A stretch of DNA of 64,000 bases from Peronospora farinosa. Lineage: Eukaryota; Oomycota; Peronosporomycetes; Peronosporales; Peronosporaceae. Under the pieces are notes generated by a model, which was not told the origin of the DNA, searched no databases, and saw nothing but the letters and a program-made list of their open reading frames with translations. The stretch is taken from NCBI GenBank assembly GCA_947646735.1, contig CANTFK010000898.1:62001-126000 (forward strand), written 5' to 3'. Shown in pieces: positions 56,026 to 64,000 of the stretch. A program made the position numbers and the translations under genes. Each line of letters starts with the position of its first letter. The first letter of the stretch is position 1.

Positions 56026-57812
56026 GACAGTGGATCAAGTCGACACCTCGTGAACAACGAAAGTCTGTCAGAGGATGTACGAAACTGCAGCCACGAATGC
56101 AACATACATTGTCGCTGTCAAAAGTTGTAAGCGTCCTACTATGTGTAATGGCAGATGGAAAGGAGCGCACGGTCAAGCTCACAGACGTTTACCTTGCGAC
56201 TCAACTCAAGCGCAACATTGTGTCGTACGGCAAACTCGAACTTAAGGGGTTCGGCCTTGTGTACGACGGTGCGACGCGCGCACTCGTCAAACGCAGCAAC
56301 AGGGAAGTGGCCTTCGACTTGACAATACTGAACAATGTACTCTACGTACAGACAGTCTCGCCATCCTGCGTTATAGGCACGCCAGCTGACGTTCTTATGG
56401 CGATCTTGTCCGATGAAGCTATGGCGGACTCAACGTCAGACACGCAAAGTGGGACTTTCACGTAATTTCACCAGCGGCTTGGAAATCTGTCGTATGACAC
56501 GGGGGAGCGAATGGAGAAGAATATCGCGTCAGGAATCAAACTTATGGACCGACGCAGTCTCACGTGTCTGTCGTGTGCCGAAGGAATGCAGACGAAGAAT
56601 GCTCAGTCGCGCAAAGACACTGGCATGAACTCGCCAATCGATAGGATTGGGGGGGGGGTCATCTGTTCGGACCTAAAGGGACCCGTGACGCTAAAAGACC
56701 GCCAAGAAAATTGATACCTTGTGAACTTTGTCGACCACAAGTCCAACTACTGCCGCGTGTTTCTGGCTCCTACAAAGGACCGCGCAGCGAAGAAGTTTGA
56801 ACAATTTCTAGTGTTTTTCGAAAGGCGATTCAATTGTCGAATTCACGTACTACGAACGGACGGCGGCGGCGAGAATCAGAACGTTGACCTGTTTTGTAAG
56901 CGCACTGTAGTCATGCGTCAAGTCTCAGAAGCGAGAAATCAAGTGTCGAACGGGAAGGCAGAGCGGATGCATCGGACGGTTCTTAACATGGCTCGATCCA
57001 TGATTTTCGCAAGTCGCCTCCCTTTGACTTTCTGGGGCAATGCCGTCAAAAACGCGGTATATATCTTGAACCGAAGGCCGACAAGCGCAAATCTGTGCCG
57101 CGCATCGCCACTACAGGTACTCACGGAGGTGGCCCCTGACCTACGCGACGTAGTTGTTTTCGGCTCGACCTGCACGGCCTACCGAGACCCACGCAAGGAT
57201 TCGCTCGCGCAGAGGGCACAAGTGGGTATCATCGTCGGGAGAAGTGACGAGACAAAAGGGTATCGAGTTTTTTTGCAGAAAGACAACATCTTGGTCGTCA
57301 CACAGCACGTGAAGAGCATTGAGACGCTTAGCGACGAGCAGAACAGTCAGCTCCAGCGAGCACTCGAATACGACGATCAAGACGCGCCAACTGCAGCTAA
57401 GGGAACGGAGTCTGCAGCGGCGTCAACGACATCACGCGCAACTGCATCAGCAACGATGCAAACAGCAACGACAGCTTTGAGCAGCGGGCGGCGAAAGACG
57501 AAGTCGTGGACGCGCTCGTCACACGGTACGCGCGGCGCGGCGAAGCGCGCGCAGAAAGCCGCGGCGCAGGAGGGGCCAGTAGGCAACACAAGCACCGTCA
57601 ACCACGTGTACGAGCGTGATCCGAAGAATTATGGCGAGGCGATGCGAAGCTCGAAAAAGATCGACTGGGAGAAAGCAATGCGCGAAGAATTGGAAGCGCT
57701 CGAAAGCAACGACGTCTGGCGCCTGATTAAACGTCCAAGAGAAAGCAATGCACTTCACACGAAGTGGGTGTACAAGACGAAGACGACTGCAGATGGAGAC
57801 GTCGAACTTTGA
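56019..57812 (+). pseudogene. Copia C protease and integrase, interrupted
   Basis: The protease signature LDSGSSRHLV follows the gag stop at 56025. After a shift, 56097-56465 gives the protease end and pre-integrase region (VYLATQLKRNIVSYGKLELK). 56511-56714 has the zinc-like CLSC segment. 56721-57812 carries the integrase core (FVDHKSNYCRVFLAP, VLRTDGGGENQN, SNGKAERMHRTVLNMARSM, LPLTFWGNAVKNAVYILNRR) with D, D and E positions visible. In-frame stops lie near 56463 and 56712. The RT begins at the end of this frame (EALESNDVWRLIKRP). Order PR-IN-RT-RH is diagnostic of Copia. Confidence 0.85.
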
Positions 57813-59150
57813 AAGAGCGGATCGTAGCGTGCGGGAACGAGCAAGTGTTTAGAGCTGACTATGTCCTCACATTTGCTGCTGTGATGGATATGTCGACCGT
57901 CAAAATTATCCTGGCTCTCGCGGCGACGTGGGGAGTAGGAGCAAAGCATGGCGATATACTAAACGCCTACGTGAAGGCAGACAAAGAGGCCGATCTGGAA
58001 ATCCTCCTGCAAGTGCCCAAGAGAATGGACGTGAGCGGCGACACTGTCAAGGAATTGGAAGCAACGAACGTGAGCGAGCTTGCGTTGCAACTTCGTAAGA
58101 GCTTGTACGTACTCAAACAGGCCGGCCGACTGTGGAGCCAATTGCTCCACACTCGCCTTCTCGACGCCGGTTTCCAGCAGTGCGAGTTAGACATGTGTCT
58201 GTACTGGAAGCAAGATGGAAGCGATCTCGTGGTGGTAGGGGTCTACGTTGATGACCTACTTGAAACCGGTACGTACGCGGCAGCGGTTAATCGTTTCTTT
58301 ACGAGTCTTGCCATGTCCATTAAGGACCTAGGTCCCGTGAACAATTTTTTGGGGATGCGAGTAGCGGTCGACGACGACGGCAGCTACGTGATCGACCAAG
58401 AAGGCGCCATAAGTGACCTCCTGAGAGAGCATGGACTCGACGACGCGAACTCAACACGCAATCTCATTGGCGCGAACTGCTACGAAGTCCCAACGACAGA
58501 TAGCGCGCTGCTGATCTCCGAAGAAGGTGGGAGCCCTAGCATCCGGAGCTTCCAGTCGCTCGTTGGCAGCCTACTGTGGGTGGCGCGCTGAAAAAGGCCA
58601 GAAATTGCGTTCGCTGTCCACAAGGCGACGCGCCAGCCGCGATTCCACGACTTCAAACTCGCGAAGCGCATTGCGCGATATTTGAAGGGTACCCAATAAT
58701 ACAAGTTACGTATGAAACCTACGAAGAATGCAGGCAAGTCGGTGACTTTGGAGTCGTACTCAGACGCAGACTTCGCTGCCGACAAGGCGGATCGGAAGTC
58801 GCTGACTGGCGGGGTCATTCGCCTGAACTGGATTGCAGTAAGCTGGACGGCCAAGAAACAAGGTGACGTCGCACTCTTCACCATAAAGGCGGAGTTTGTC
58901 GCAGCGTCGGAGCAGGCGCGTGAGTTTATTGGCATTCGACAGATGCTGTGCGAATTTGGGTTGCCACCCGGACTGCCGATAACGCTCCACGTCGACAAAC
59001 AAGCAGCTATCAAGCAGCTATGGCGAGTTGTCATCCCTGAAAGCCAAGCACATCGATGTGCGCCTCAAGTTTGTGCGTGATAACGCGCGACGTGGGCGCA
59101 GCACGTGCGGTCTGAGTCTCAGCTTGCAGATCGAATGACGAAGGACGTGG
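57764..59150 (+). pseudogene. Copia C reverse transcriptase and RNase H, interrupted
   Basis: 57764-58591 holds the RT palm (VKIILALAATWGVGAKHGDI, LRKSLYVLKQAGRLWSQLL, and the catalytic VGVYVDDLLETG near 58235). A TGA at 58591, in the usual LLWVAR-x-RPEIAF context, and a TAA near 58697 interrupt it. RNase H continues at 58712-59020 (SYSDADFAADKADRKSLTGG, EFVAASEQAREFIGIRQML). A shift near 59020 precedes a last piece (KHIDVRLKFVRD). Many of the lesions are consistent with single-base changes. Confidence 0.85.
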
Positions 59151-59243
59151 ATGCAACCATCTGGCTTCGCTGTGTGTGTTGATAAACCTCGAATAGAGGC
59201 AGAAGCCGAGAAGGACAGAAAGGCATACGGTGGTGCCGCAGCC

Positions 59244-59649: not shown

Positions 59650-60110
59650 TGTAATGGGGCACCCTCCGACTAAACTGATTACAGTATAGTCTACTTTTAC
59701 TGATTACATTGAAAGCAGGTGCCTCAATTACCTCTCTTACACAAGAGGAAGAGGAAGCTTTACTTCTAAACGATACGCTTAGAAGTAGAGGAAAAGAAAA
59801 ACTGTATTTAATATAGTTAACTATCTAATAAAACTAATCTGTTATAACCTATGTTAACTATATTAAACTACAACTATGTATGTTGACAACTTGCCCTCCA
59901 CTCATTGCGCGCGTCCATCGGTCATTGGTCAGCGCGTTGGTTGATATGATGGCCCATATCAACCAATGATACGGCATCTCCAACTTCAAGGAGATCTAGG
60001 AACAATATTATAAGAAAAGATAATATTGTCAAATATTATTAGTTATAATAATATTTTTATTGACACTTCATATAAGTGTCAATATTATGTAACGGGCTCA
60101 CCCCGTTACA
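59650..60110 (-). repeat. Gypsy C 3' LTR
   Basis: 461 bp from TGTAATGGGGC to CCCCGTTACA in plus orientation; read with its element (minus) it starts TGTAACGGGG. It is AT-rich with internal inverted repeats (TTGACACTTATATGAAGTGTC, and GTAACGGGCTCACCCCGTTAC near the end). The adjacent polypurine tract on the minus strand assigns it as the 3' LTR of the minus-strand pol. Confidence 0.72.
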
Positions 60111-60123
60111 TCACCTCCCTCTC
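60111..60123 (-). promoter_or_regulatory. Gypsy C polypurine tract
   Basis: The minus strand reads AGAGGGAGGTGA directly before the LTR start TGTAAC. This fixes the element's orientation as minus. Confidence 0.65.
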
Positions 60124-60207
60124 AACCAACAGTCACATTAGTGACTGTTTAGTGACTATGGGAAAGGAGCACTTGTTGAATTTTCTTTCATTCAACAATG
60201 TTACGCT

Positions 60208-62185
60208 ATGACAAAGTCAATGCGTGTCGCTGCTAAGGCAGCTAAGAGCTCGGCTGCACGTCTGTGTGCAGCCGCTACTGAGGCTTCACAGCCTCAGCCA
60301 GCTGACACTAATGCGTCTGCTGGATGTCAACATCAGCCTGAAACGCCTGTTGCAGGTTCACGTAGCGCTTCGCCACGCGAAGATGTTGACCCAGCGTTAG
60401 TCGTTGACTACTCTAATGAGTCGGATGACGCATCCGACTCAAAGTCACCTGTGTCACTCCCGGGCTCTCCCCGGGGTGATACCTCGTCGTCGAATGTTAC
60501 GAAGAGGGATCGTGGTACATTGAGTGAATCAATGTACCGTGAAATGTTCGGGTCGTCTGATGAATCACATTAGTGTCTGCTGGATGTCAACATCAGCCTG
60601 CAACGCCTGTTGCAGGTTCACGTAGCGCTTCGCCACGTGAAGATGTTGACCCAGAGTTAGTCGCTGACTACTCTGGTGAGTCGGATGACGCATCCGGCTC
60701 AAAGTCACCTGTGTCACTCCCGGGCTCTCCCCGGGGTGATACCTCGTCGTCGAATGTTACGAAGAGGGGTCGTGGTACATTGAGTGAATCAATGTACCGT
60801 GAAATGTTCGGGTCGCCTGATGAATTAGACGACTCGCCAAACGAGTCGAAGGATAGTGACTCGGGTGGGGACCGTAAGGGTGATGTCAGTGCTTCTACTG
60901 ACATTAATGCACGTGGTGTCGGTACTTCGGCTGACACTAATGCTCGTGGTGTCGGTACTTATGTTGAAACCACGCAGGAGGCTTTAGACCGCAACGTATT
61001 GCGTCTTGATCCTGATCGCAAGCCATGGATGCTACCTAAGCATCTGCTTGCGTTGGTCTGGAAAGACCAACGAACGGTTTCCCATACCGTTGTTTGATGC
61101 GTCAAAGCTTCATGGCCTTGACGCCAGTGCGAAGAACTTTTGCACTGAGAACGATTATTACATCGATGTGTTCCTTGAACATCGATGGTATGGCCCACAC
61201 AAGAAGCGTGAGGCTGACGCGTTCCTCCAATCTTGGAACGCGTTTATCCCCAAAGTTTTAAACGTTGGGAAAGAGGCTTGGTTTCAAAGACTGTTTGCTA
61301 TCCGCAATAAGTTTGAGAAACGAAGTACGTCCGGTGCATGCTATCGTTTGCACCGGTTATTTAGAGAGGAAGGCCTATTACGCCTCTCTTGGGGCGACCC
61401 ATGCCCGGGGTGACTGAGCACCTCGTCAAGAGCGCCTAAGGAGGCGTACCTCCTTACTGAGCCCTGGTGGAGGGCTCGCATCTCTTCTGAGATGAGTGAA
61501 GGGATTTCTACTTTGCAATCCCTTTACGAGCGCGCTGGGCGCTCGTTCTCCGATGGTCCTTCACCATCGGGTGTCCCTTGTCGTACTGTTCGACAAGGCC
61601 GGGAACGTCGGCCATCAGTTGGGCCCGAGGTTCCCAGCTATCCCTCAAAGGCGGATAGCCACGCCACCGGACGAGATAACTCGTCCGACGTCCCTTCACC
61701 TCGCGGTGCTTTAGTAAGCGTTCCACGAGGAAGCGCTTCCCACCATGGGAATCCACCAGCGGATGCGGTGGTGGAGTGAAAACCCTGTCCGATTCTTTCA
61801 TCGTACTTGGCTGCTGAGTTAGACGGGTTTGCCCGTGTAACTCGTGAGCTCCGTTGTGATGTTGATCACGAACGGAATAAGCGTCGCCGCTTAAAGGACA
61901 TTGTGCGACAGCTTGGGTTTGACCATGAGAAGTCTCGGGCAAACAATGCTGTCGCACTATTGGAGAATGAACGGCGGCTTCATTCTCTAAGTAACGAGCT
62001 GGCGACAGCTCGTCAGAAGATCGTCTAATATCATGGGAAGATCTCATCTCTACACGACCAGGTATCGAATCTGGTTCGTGACAACGAGAATCTGAAGGGG
62101 ATTCTTGAGAGTAATGGCTATCTTCGTCGTTCGAAGAATCCGCGAACTGAACGTACGGACGAAGACGTCCCACGTAAAACGTAGG
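60208..62185 (+). pseudogene. Long antisense gag-like frame in Gypsy C, interrupted
   Basis: Starts MTKSMRVAAKAAKSSAARL at 60208. A 260-bp tandem duplication shifts the frame, then it continues to 61097, 61006-61413, 61492-61779 and 61807-62185, with one shift near 61090 and isolated stops at 61413, near 61779 and 62028. Order of features: Ser/Asp-rich acidic region (SNESDDASDSKSPVSLPGSP); short ADTNARGVGT repeats; a folded-looking segment (WMLPKHLLALVWKD, FCTENDYYIDVFLEHRWYG, FLQSWNAFIPKVLNVGKEAW, CYRLHRLFREEGLLRLSWGD); a Ser/Pro-rich stretch; and a coiled coil (VTRELRCDVDHERNKRRRLK, LLENERRLHSLSNELATARQ). It could be a Gag-like structural protein. Its last ~680 bp lie opposite the chromodomain and linker of the pol on the other strand. 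Confidence 0.62.
60316..60835 (+). repeat. 260-bp direct tandem duplication
   Basis: 60316-60575 and 60576-60835 are nearly identical (both start TCTGCTGGATGTCAACATCA). The unit length is not a multiple of three, so the duplication itself breaks the antisense frame with a TAG at 60571-60573. Confidence 0.88.
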
Positions 62186-62512
62186 ATGCGTACGCATCCT
62201 GCGTGGCAACTCGATCGTGTATGCGTTGCCTAGGCGGCGCAGTACTCGAAACGGGCCGATGTACTTGGGCAACAATCCATTGCTGCCCACGTTAGTCACT
62301 ACATGTTTAGGTAGGTTTACTGTTGACAGTAAAACTAAATCACCTTCAATAAATGTCTGAGCATTTGCCCTTCCATTATTGTCTGCGTTTCGCTTTTGCT
62401 TATCCACCGCTTCTGCGATGGAGTCTTGCACGAAACGGACTACCGCTTCACGAGTCAGCAGGAAATCCTCAGCTGACTCTTTGCTTTTGGCTGCAGTGCA
62501 TTGTGAATGCAC
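61508..62512 (-). pseudogene. Gypsy C pol C-terminus with chromodomain
   Basis: Open for 334 codons. It contains the integrase C-terminal domain (FIEGDLVLLSTVNLPK, LLPKYIGPFRVLRRLGNAYT, MRTHPTFYVGRLRPYVQF), a Ser/Glu/His-rich linker, and a chromodomain (LVERLLKHREVKGRRTSYLV, RWRGYPPLRDSWEPRAQL) ending IAK*. The chromodomain marks a chromovirus and would target integration to marked chromatin. It is separated from the integrase core by a stop and a shift, so it is listed as part of a broken pol, though this stretch itself is clean. Confidence 0.82.
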
Positions 62513-64000
62513 TGCAGAGATATCGGTTGATAATTCAGCGATAACAGGACTGTTCTCTCTTGTGATACCTCGAACGATGCTGATATCTTCAGCATCGTTA
62601 TCAGTAAGAGCTTCATCGCTCTTACTTTCTTCCTCTTCACCGAGGTCGAATGGTACGACTTCGGTTACTTTCGCGTCGACTATAACGTCTTCGTCGCGTG
62701 ATGATCAAGAGCCAGATTGGTTCTCGCTCGAGCGAGTCTTTCCCCCCTCTAAATTAGAGTCATCCTCTACTAAGGTGGGGACACGTGGATGGCGAAGGCC
62801 ATTTACGTAGAACGATGTATGCGTCGTGGACGCATGCACTGAGTTGTTGATGGCGAATTCGACCATCGACAAGAACTCACTTCAACTCGGAAACGAGTGG
62901 ACGTACCCTCGAAGAATCTCTTCGAGGACGCGATTGGCGCGTTCAGTCTGACCATCAGTTGCTGGATGGTCACAAGTAGACATTGTGAGCCGTGTTCCAA
63001 GTGTTTGGAACACGGAACGCCAAAACTCAGCCGTGAACCGGGGGTCCCTATCGGACACAAGTTCACGGGGTAACCCGTGCAATCGAAAGATTGTATCGAT
63101 AAACACTCGAGCACAGCCCTCTGCTGTGATCGACTCAGGTACAGCAACAAGATGTACCATCTTGCTGAACCTGTCTACAAACACGAGTATACCATTATTC
63201 CCGTGAGCGTCTTTGGGAAACCCAAAGACGAAGTCCATTGATACGGACTCCCAGCACTCTGCCGGAACAGGTAGAGGCTGCAATGGTGCACGGAGTGAAG
63301 GACTAGGCTTCACTCGTTGACACACCTCGCAATCACGCACGTACTTGCGCACAAACTTATACTGGCGTGGCCAGTAAAAGTCGCGACTGACCGTGAGGTA
63401 AGTCTTCTCACGGCCGCGATGCCCACTTATTGGTGCATCGTGACATTCAAACATGATCCGTAACCTGTGATCATGTTGTGGCGGTACAACAACACGAGGT
63501 GTGTCGTTGTTGACGGCTGTGTAATACAGTAAGCCGTTCTGCTGGGTGTATCGATCGAGAGAAGATCGATACATGGCAGGCAAGCGCTTCTTAGCTTGCG
63601 TGGATGGGTCCTTGAGATACTCCATCAGGCGTACAAGATCAATGTTTTTGTGCGCATGCCCTTCTAATGTCGTCGAGTAAGCTTAACGACAATACGCTGG
63701 TACTCAGCGTGGCGACAGTGGTGTTTACATCACTGTCGGATTGCACAGTCGGCTCTAGGTCAGGCCGACGTGAAAGAGCATCGGCGACGACGTTAAGTCG
63801 TCCCGGCTTATACTCCACGGAGAAGTTGTACTCCGCGAAAAACGACAACCATCTCGCCATTCGTTGCGAGAGGTGTGGACTATTTACAGCCGTGGGTAGT
63901 GACGCATGGTCTGTATATACAATGAACGGTCTATCTCCTAAGAGATAGACGCGAAACTTAGCCAATGCATACTTCATGGCAAGGAGTTCCTTGTCATGCA
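62513..64000 (-). pseudogene. Gypsy C RNase H and integrase core, runs off the right edge
   Basis: 63977-63639 carries RNase H (FIVYTDHASLPTAVNSPHLS, RMARWLSFFAEYNFSVEYKP). One shift leads to 63625-62882 with the integrase zinc region (HDAPISGHRGREKTYLTV, CEVCQRVKPSPSL) and the catalytic core (VSMDFVFGFPKDAHGNNGIL, SDRDPRFTAEFWRSVF, DHPATDGQTERANRVLEE; D, D, E present). A TGA at 62882 and a further shift near 62705 precede the chromodomain frame. Only about three lesions in 2.5 kb suggest a fairly recent copy. RT, protease, gag and the 5' LTR would lie to the right of 64000. Confidence 0.83.

Follow-up and report, generated by a model that had tools for sequence, protein, structure and literature searches.

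The window examined here, a 64,000-nucleotide stretch of the oomycete Peronospora farinosa (contig CANTFK010000898.1, positions 62,001 to 126,000; G000:C237:62001-126000 in our numbering), carries near its right end a damaged copy of a chromodomain Ty3/Gypsy long terminal repeat (LTR) retrotransposon. Our analysis of this copy and its family indicates that the element probably has three genes, of which gag and pol are read in sense and the third, also a real gene, is read antisense, overlaps the 3' end of pol and may encode a regulator. The antisense gene begins just inside the 3' LTR and occupies approximately 1.04 kb alone before it enters the 3' end of pol.

The antisense frame and its copies

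On the minus strand of the window, a polypurine tract (60111..60125), which was also recognized in other copies, directly precedes a 461-bp LTR that begins with TGTAAC (59650..60110). This order identifies the LTR as the 3' LTR, with the element read toward the left, as a sequence-only reading had proposed and as is borne out by other copies, in which a second LTR on the pol side identifies 59650-60110 as an LTR. The pol stop codon lies at 61508 on the minus strand. On the plus strand, the antisense gene occupies 60208..62184 and is composed of a single-coded part (60208..61507), which encodes an acidic disordered N-terminal part and most of a helical domain, and a double-coding overlap (61508..62184), in which the C-terminus of pol is encoded on the minus strand and that of the antisense protein on the plus strand. 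The overlap measures 677 bp, in agreement with the first estimate of approximately 680 bp. The plus-strand frame had been described as some 600 codons long and broken by a duplication and lesions, and we found a 251-bp direct duplication in this copy (60315..60825, with units at 60315-60565 and 60575-60825) together with three stops within the antisense stretches that could be matched. Truncation on the pol side is a further defect of the window copy: it resembles copy L022 only as far as G000:C237:127649, and the 10 kb fetched there contained no second LTR. Because this copy is damaged, the finding is judged on the family.

Copies of the element, designated by L-numbers, were collected from a 46.85-Mb assembly of 274 contigs. 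Of 208 first-look candidates in a DNA search, 40 places, one of them that of the window, scored at 95-100% identity. When the genome was searched with the L012 antisense protein, 74 scored candidates (of 528) gave 87 match rows, and 11 of the rows covered at least 587 of 588 residues with no stop. Antisense frame, pol and LTR occurred jointly in 20/20 fetched copies, and in eight of these (L002, L004, L005, L006, L011, L012, L017 and L020) the frame was open over all 572 codons, with the same ATG and no indel. The last 225 of these codons lie opposite the pol C-terminus, and the other 347 codons have no pol opposite. Within those 347 single-coded codons, the antisense frame of the eight open copies contained no stops, as compared with 6-41 per frame for the five others.

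For 16 copies, a complete or almost complete comparison of the two LTRs was possible, and the pairs were 96.1-100% identical; L009, which lacked an LTR, is not among them. The L005 pair was 98.0% identical across 149 bp and 98.6% identical across 292 bp. In addition, L002 sits in opposite orientation inside the 5' LTR of L005 (G000:C42), which it splits, and is flanked by a 5-bp target duplication. The LTR identities and this nested insertion therefore mark the family as young and as one that transposes. Judged from its sequence, the plus-strand frame is a real protein-coding gene, because it is open in many young copies, lacks the stops seen in the other frames and has homologs at 42-50% identity elsewhere.

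Relatives and the shared overlap

Proteins obtained in protein searches are designated by P-numbers, and the antisense and pol proteins of the window copy's own family ("own") were compared against them. The first search found 191 homologs of the antisense protein, of which the best 120 were listed, most of them 40-50% identical; a second search listed the best 120 of 144. Among the best 120 homologs were a P. effusa match with 79% identity over 91% of the query, a 529-residue P. matthiolae cluster of 1335 members with 42% identity, and the ENA contig proteins P0005, P0006, P0007, P0011, P0019 and P0038 with 42-50% identity. Close protein matches came from P. effusa and P. farinosa, and none of the 120 listed entries carried a functional name. 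Profile scans of IMG/VR and GTDB contigs revealed no relatives beyond Peronospora, and PLSDB, which was queried with one piece, gave no match. The own, P0005, P0007, P0011 and P0014 antisense proteins are 42-53% identical in pairs. In an alignment of 22 sequences, invariant residues cluster in the middle domain; C306 is one of them, and C313 and C316 are almost invariant. The P. effusa protein P0001 has an in-frame duplication of its own, of approximately 94 residues in the acidic part, that resembles the 251-bp duplication of the window copy; the acidic region may be prone to duplication.

The overlap was examined in other families from proteins only, using a compatibility test in which one codon path must spell an antisense protein and a pol protein on opposite strands. 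Best paths were determined by dynamic programming at every offset, in three phases for pair tests and in phase 1 only for a wider scan. The own pair fit at 445/445, and fits were near-perfect for P0014 x P0126 (P. matthiolae; 421/433), P0021 x P0126 (420/433), P0011 x P0124 (443/445), P0005 x P0123 (483/491) and P0020 x P0132 (380/391). Weaker fits were obtained for P0066 x P0129 (321/395), P0007 x P0122 (381/447), P0059 x P0137 (357/439) and P0116 x P0147 (224/241), four pairs in which the antisense and pol proteins probably do not come from one copy. Phase 1 was the best in 10/10 pairs. Five shuffles of the pol tail per pair gave maxima of 170-345 over the ten pairs, each under the real value; maxima of 300-345 were reached for P0014 x P0126, P0011 x P0124 and P0005 x P0123. 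When scored over 100 residues at a time, nine pairs were distinct from the next placement (180-201 versus 143-150), and P0116 x P0147 was not (147 versus 141).

In the wider scan, the own antisense protein and P0001-P0120 were matched with 32 pol proteins, 12 of which, own included, reached at least 117/121. The remaining 20 scored 94-111, and the next-best placements of the best pairs scored 86-94. Gene models whose tails are altered are among these 20, as are distant elements with no known antisense partner, and the distant-element proteins P0139-P0146 and P0148-P0152 scored 94-102/121 against the antisense proteins at hand. Because the two-strand fits are near-perfect and share one phase, they indicate that the double-coding overlap is common to at least five families, namely own, P0011/P0124, P0005/P0123, P0014/P0126 and, with a weaker fit, P0007/P0122. 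Its length is approximately 650-740 bp across families. The proposal of an ambisense element with a double-coding overlap thus extends to an arrangement common to other families.

Evidence for constraint on the antisense frame

Among the eight open copies, the ratio of nonsynonymous to synonymous polymorphism (pN/pS) was 0.29 for residues 151-347. For the overlap, we used a null model in which the pol protein is fixed and synonymous codons are free, with codon usage taken from 1283 codons. Across six pol proteins, this model predicted 4.6-7.2 stops in the real antisense phase, and only 0 to 0.4% of 3000 draws were stop-free. The identity of the antisense proteins within the overlap was 0.39-0.52, as opposed to the 0.20-0.23 predicted by free synonymous choice in a model that starts from the own DNA and sets the pol residues to those of four other families (highest values among 400 draws, 0.26-0.32). 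This conservation across diverged families suggests that the antisense gene is useful to the element.

Conservation of the two proteins was also compared along the overlap. In the chromodomain stretch (L012 2070-2279), pol was better conserved than the antisense protein in 7/7 ten-codon bins, and in the coiled-coil stretch (L012 2310-2609) the antisense protein was better conserved in 7 of 10 bins, equal in two and worse in one. In the proposed arrangement, the chromodomain would face a disordered antisense stretch and the coiled coil a linker of pol that is variable, so that both proteins could persist.

Predicted protein and candidate promoter

AlphaFold2 (mean predicted local distance difference test score, pLDDT, 61.5) predicted that the antisense protein comprises a helix (residues 3-26), a disordered region (28-183), a helical domain (approximately 188-360), a disordered linker, a second helix (445-549) and a basic tail. 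The second helix is predicted to be a coiled coil of 105 residues, mostly with pLDDT 89-96, and the helical domain predicted alone gave pLDDT 82.5 and a predicted template modeling score of 0.72. Transferred from L012, these parts lie at approximately 61798..62112 for the coiled coil and 60960..61560 for the helical domain (L012:1461-2063), both on the plus strand. The helical domain had no convincing match in PDB and no recognized fold. In seven members, the part from residue 31 to the domain carries a net negative charge and the final 34 residues a net positive one (+3 to +5). The acidic, folded-looking and coiled-coil parts noticed at first sight are also found in prediction and charge. The same seven members have no transmembrane stretch of the Env type, with a maximum 19-residue hydropathy of 0.31-1.36, and the protein is predicted to be soluble. 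For five antisense proteins, no Pfam match reached its cut-off, there was no capsid domain or CCHC knuckle, and TRP28 (PF04195) was absent from matches at E up to 1.

An initiator-like TTTCATTCAACAAT separates the LTR from the antisense gene and lies approximately 20 nt upstream of the ATG, with its TCATTC at 60188..60193 on the plus strand. This TCATTC core is present in 15/17 copies, which share descent, and in the old copy L041, against a background of approximately 0.01 per 60 nt. Homologs mostly begin at the sequence MRCA, 12 nt further in, and from that start the distance to the initiator would be approximately 30 nt. In Phytophthora infestans, the initiator most often has the form TCATTCT, and start sites have been inferred at 32-144 nt upstream of the start codon (PMC3599244). 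The initiator-like site is therefore a candidate promoter for the antisense gene that is nearer than the 3' LTR.

The element family and the rest of the window

The copy L012/L022 extends for approximately 8.2 kb from outer LTR end to outer LTR end. Two LTRs, a site like a primer-binding site (PBS) and the polypurine tract are all present in other members of the family; the 5' end is absent from the window copy. The PBS-like site, CCTGGTAGCACTT, lies directly inside the pol-side LTR, 3' of it in the sense of the element, in 16/16 copies printed, and a 13-base word from it occurs 141 times in the genome, as opposed to four times for a reversed control. In other copies the gene order is gag, then protease, reverse transcriptase (RT), RNase H, integrase and chromodomain, of which the window copy shows the 3' part only. 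A separate sense gag upstream of pol, which the sequence-only reading had proposed to look for, is found in L022 as a 407-codon frame that adjoins the PBS and matches the Pfam models Retrotrans_gag (6e-13), Ty3_capsid (2e-7) and a CCHC knuckle (0.0016). In L025, protease, RT, RNase H and integrase were recognized by Pfam in one 1289-codon frame. In one 1289-residue pol frame, the only RNase H matches were to RT_RNaseH models, and a second RNase H was not found at E values up to 0.1.

The domains of pol seen at first on the minus strand of the window, RNase H, integrase and chromodomain, were all recovered with Pfam, which added H2C2 and SH3_Tf2-1. The chromodomain (61577..61729; PF00385) is followed in the upstream direction by the SH3_Tf2-1 module of integrase (62150..62344; PF24626), the integrase core (62975..63244; PF00665), the zinc-binding H2C2 domain of integrase (63302..63478; PF17921) and a frame with the end of the RNase H domain that continues past the window (63642..63998; PF17917). 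Upstream of the SH3 module, the pol frame of L001-L020 is split in several copies at a one-base run of varying length and continuous in others, which reflects true variation or assembly error. L020 and L006 (G000:C25:95370-107289) lie in the same orientation, 7.7 kb apart, with one LTR common to both, in the manner of a tandem pair.

Elsewhere in the window, a remnant pol with frame breaks, which we take to be of the Ty1/copia type from motifs such as YVDDLL, lies just left of the Gypsy 3' LTR (56715-59240, plus strand), and several frames of 300-1100 codons are present on both strands between 1 and 33000. Rfam and tRNA scans of the window gave no matches.

Interpretation and alternatives

For the function of the antisense gene, we favor a joint proposal to which we assign somewhat less than an even chance, and which draws on analogy. 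Transcription of the gene would start at a core promoter of its own, located between the 3' LTR and the ATG, and the protein would pair through the coiled coil and be brought into the nucleus by the basic tail. There, the acidic part and the helical domain may influence how the element is transcribed, silenced or integrated. As an accessory nuclear regulator, the protein would act in the manner of HBZ of human T-cell leukemia virus type 1 (HTLV-1) or of the antisense proteins of plant Retand elements. It is unlikely, in our estimate, that the gene is real and its protein is instead structural or borne in particles, such as a scaffold or integrase partner.

Several observations weigh against a maintained antisense regulator. 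The gene is recognized from its sequence, and the regulator is proposed by analogy. Among the eight open copies, pN/pS reached 0.55 in the overlap and 1.34 over the first 150 residues. Three older copies look near-neutral, with dN/dS of 0.33-1.57 by part, and are uninformative. In the overlap, 40 sites vary among the eight copies; changes silent in pol that alter the antisense protein are not depleted (13 versus 10.9 expected), and those that alter both proteins number nine versus 14.9 expected, too few for power. A null model that forbids all synonymous change predicts an antisense identity of 0.62-0.72, above that observed; the identity argument assumes diverged synonymous sites, and such divergence is likely at 54-59% pol identity. 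Conservation of pol and the antisense protein along the overlap correlates at r = +0.35, and the expected anti-correlation is absent overall. Finally, the expectation that the frame stays open in young copies held for the eight whole frames among 20 and not for L007, L010, L013, L015 and L019, which have LTR pairs 99.4-100% identical and yet a broken or partial antisense frame. In such copies, the protein may act in trans or be dispensable for each jump, or the frame may have suffered later damage or assembly error.

These broken young frames would also fit a gene captured from a host or another foreign source, one that travels with the element and stays open chiefly through selection on the pol opposite. 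We consider such a capture very improbable, since the 347 codons with no pol opposite are open and conserved, antisense identity is maintained over diverged families, and stops would be expected opposite pol were the frame free. The sequence-only reading called the antisense protein Gag-like, and its position next to the LTR and its acidic and coiled-coil parts are in keeping with that label. However, with an ordinary sense Gag after the PBS in L022, and with neither a capsid domain nor a CCHC knuckle recognized by Pfam in five antisense proteins, this identification has almost no probability, and we abandon it. Antisense frames can remain open opposite coding DNA, and the long frame might then be a by-product of codon bias opposite pol, or the whole a chance junction of two elements. 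Over half of the antisense gene lies outside pol, and the same joint structure recurs in the 20 fetched copies, whole in eight, and in other families, which together with the absence of stops makes a random frame or chance junction just as hard to credit as a Gag.

A real antisense gene thus remains our preferred reading, and we give about an even chance to its broader form, in which an oomycete chromodomain Gypsy lineage is truly ambisense and has long kept an antisense regulatory gene opposite the integrase C-terminus and chromodomain, independently of Retand and HTLV HBZ; the regulator and the domain that directs integration would then evolve together in one double-coded block. If true, a further unrelated antisense accessory gene, in a chromodomain element of a different kingdom, would suggest that LTR elements have repeatedly been selected for antisense regulators. 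An overlap of this length, in a phase common to at least five diverged families, would be a well-supported long antisense protein-coding overlap in eukaryotic DNA, and it allows one to ask how one stretch of DNA serves two proteins. Many "uncharacterized" proteins of downy mildews, including clusters of 1335 and 524 members among others, are also identified as retroelement products.

Comparison with known systems

Chromoviruses encode gag, protease, RT, RNase H, integrase and a chromodomain. The oomycete element has the same domain set, a likeness judged by domain content. To our knowledge, an antisense gene is not part of the described chromovirus plan. Chronos is an oomycete chromodomain Ty3/Gypsy group of Peronosporales and Pythiales with a dual RNase H that includes aRNH (PMC5348765). 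Our element resembles Chronos in this host group and in a chromodomain after integrase at the pol 3' end, and differs in a pol frame that shows only the ordinary RNase H by Pfam, without aRNH; the report on Chronos contains no mention of antisense, additional ORF or opposite. The P. effusa pangenome report describes a recent Gypsy expansion and, in its accessible text, does not mention antisense (PMC11540230). We found no antisense gene in an oomycete Gypsy element in the literature covered, which mostly excludes subscription journals.

In plants, Retand elements carry antisense open reading frames between pol and the 3' LTR, with TRP28 in 97% of clusters, as a regular feature of non-chromovirus elements; these frames are present in the recent copies studied, and their function is unknown, with a regulator suspected (PMC11963269). 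The oomycete element is likewise Ty3/Gypsy with an antisense frame between pol and the 3' LTR. Unlike Retand, it has a chromodomain, its antisense protein has no TRP28 match, it lacks a stretch of 3-6.5 kb between pol and the 3' LTR, and its antisense gene overlaps pol by the length given above, an overlap that the main text of PMC11963269 does not mention.

HBZ of HTLV-1 has an acidic N-terminal part and a coiled-coil C-terminal part, and regulates viral transcription. The oomycete antisense gene is similar in its origin on the 3' LTR side and in the acidic N-terminal and coiled-coil C-terminal parts of its protein, and differs in belonging to an oomycete retrotransposon and in overlapping the integrase C-terminus and chromodomain. 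We saw no sign of homology between the antisense protein and either HBZ or the Retand antisense proteins. That the antisense proteins of HTLV-1 and HTLV-2 originate from the 3' LTR side is described in two reports (PMC3736048, PMC5797633). Taken together, the idea of an antisense gene is known from Retand and HTLV, and what is new here is an unrelated protein, in another kingdom, with a long shared double-coding overlap.
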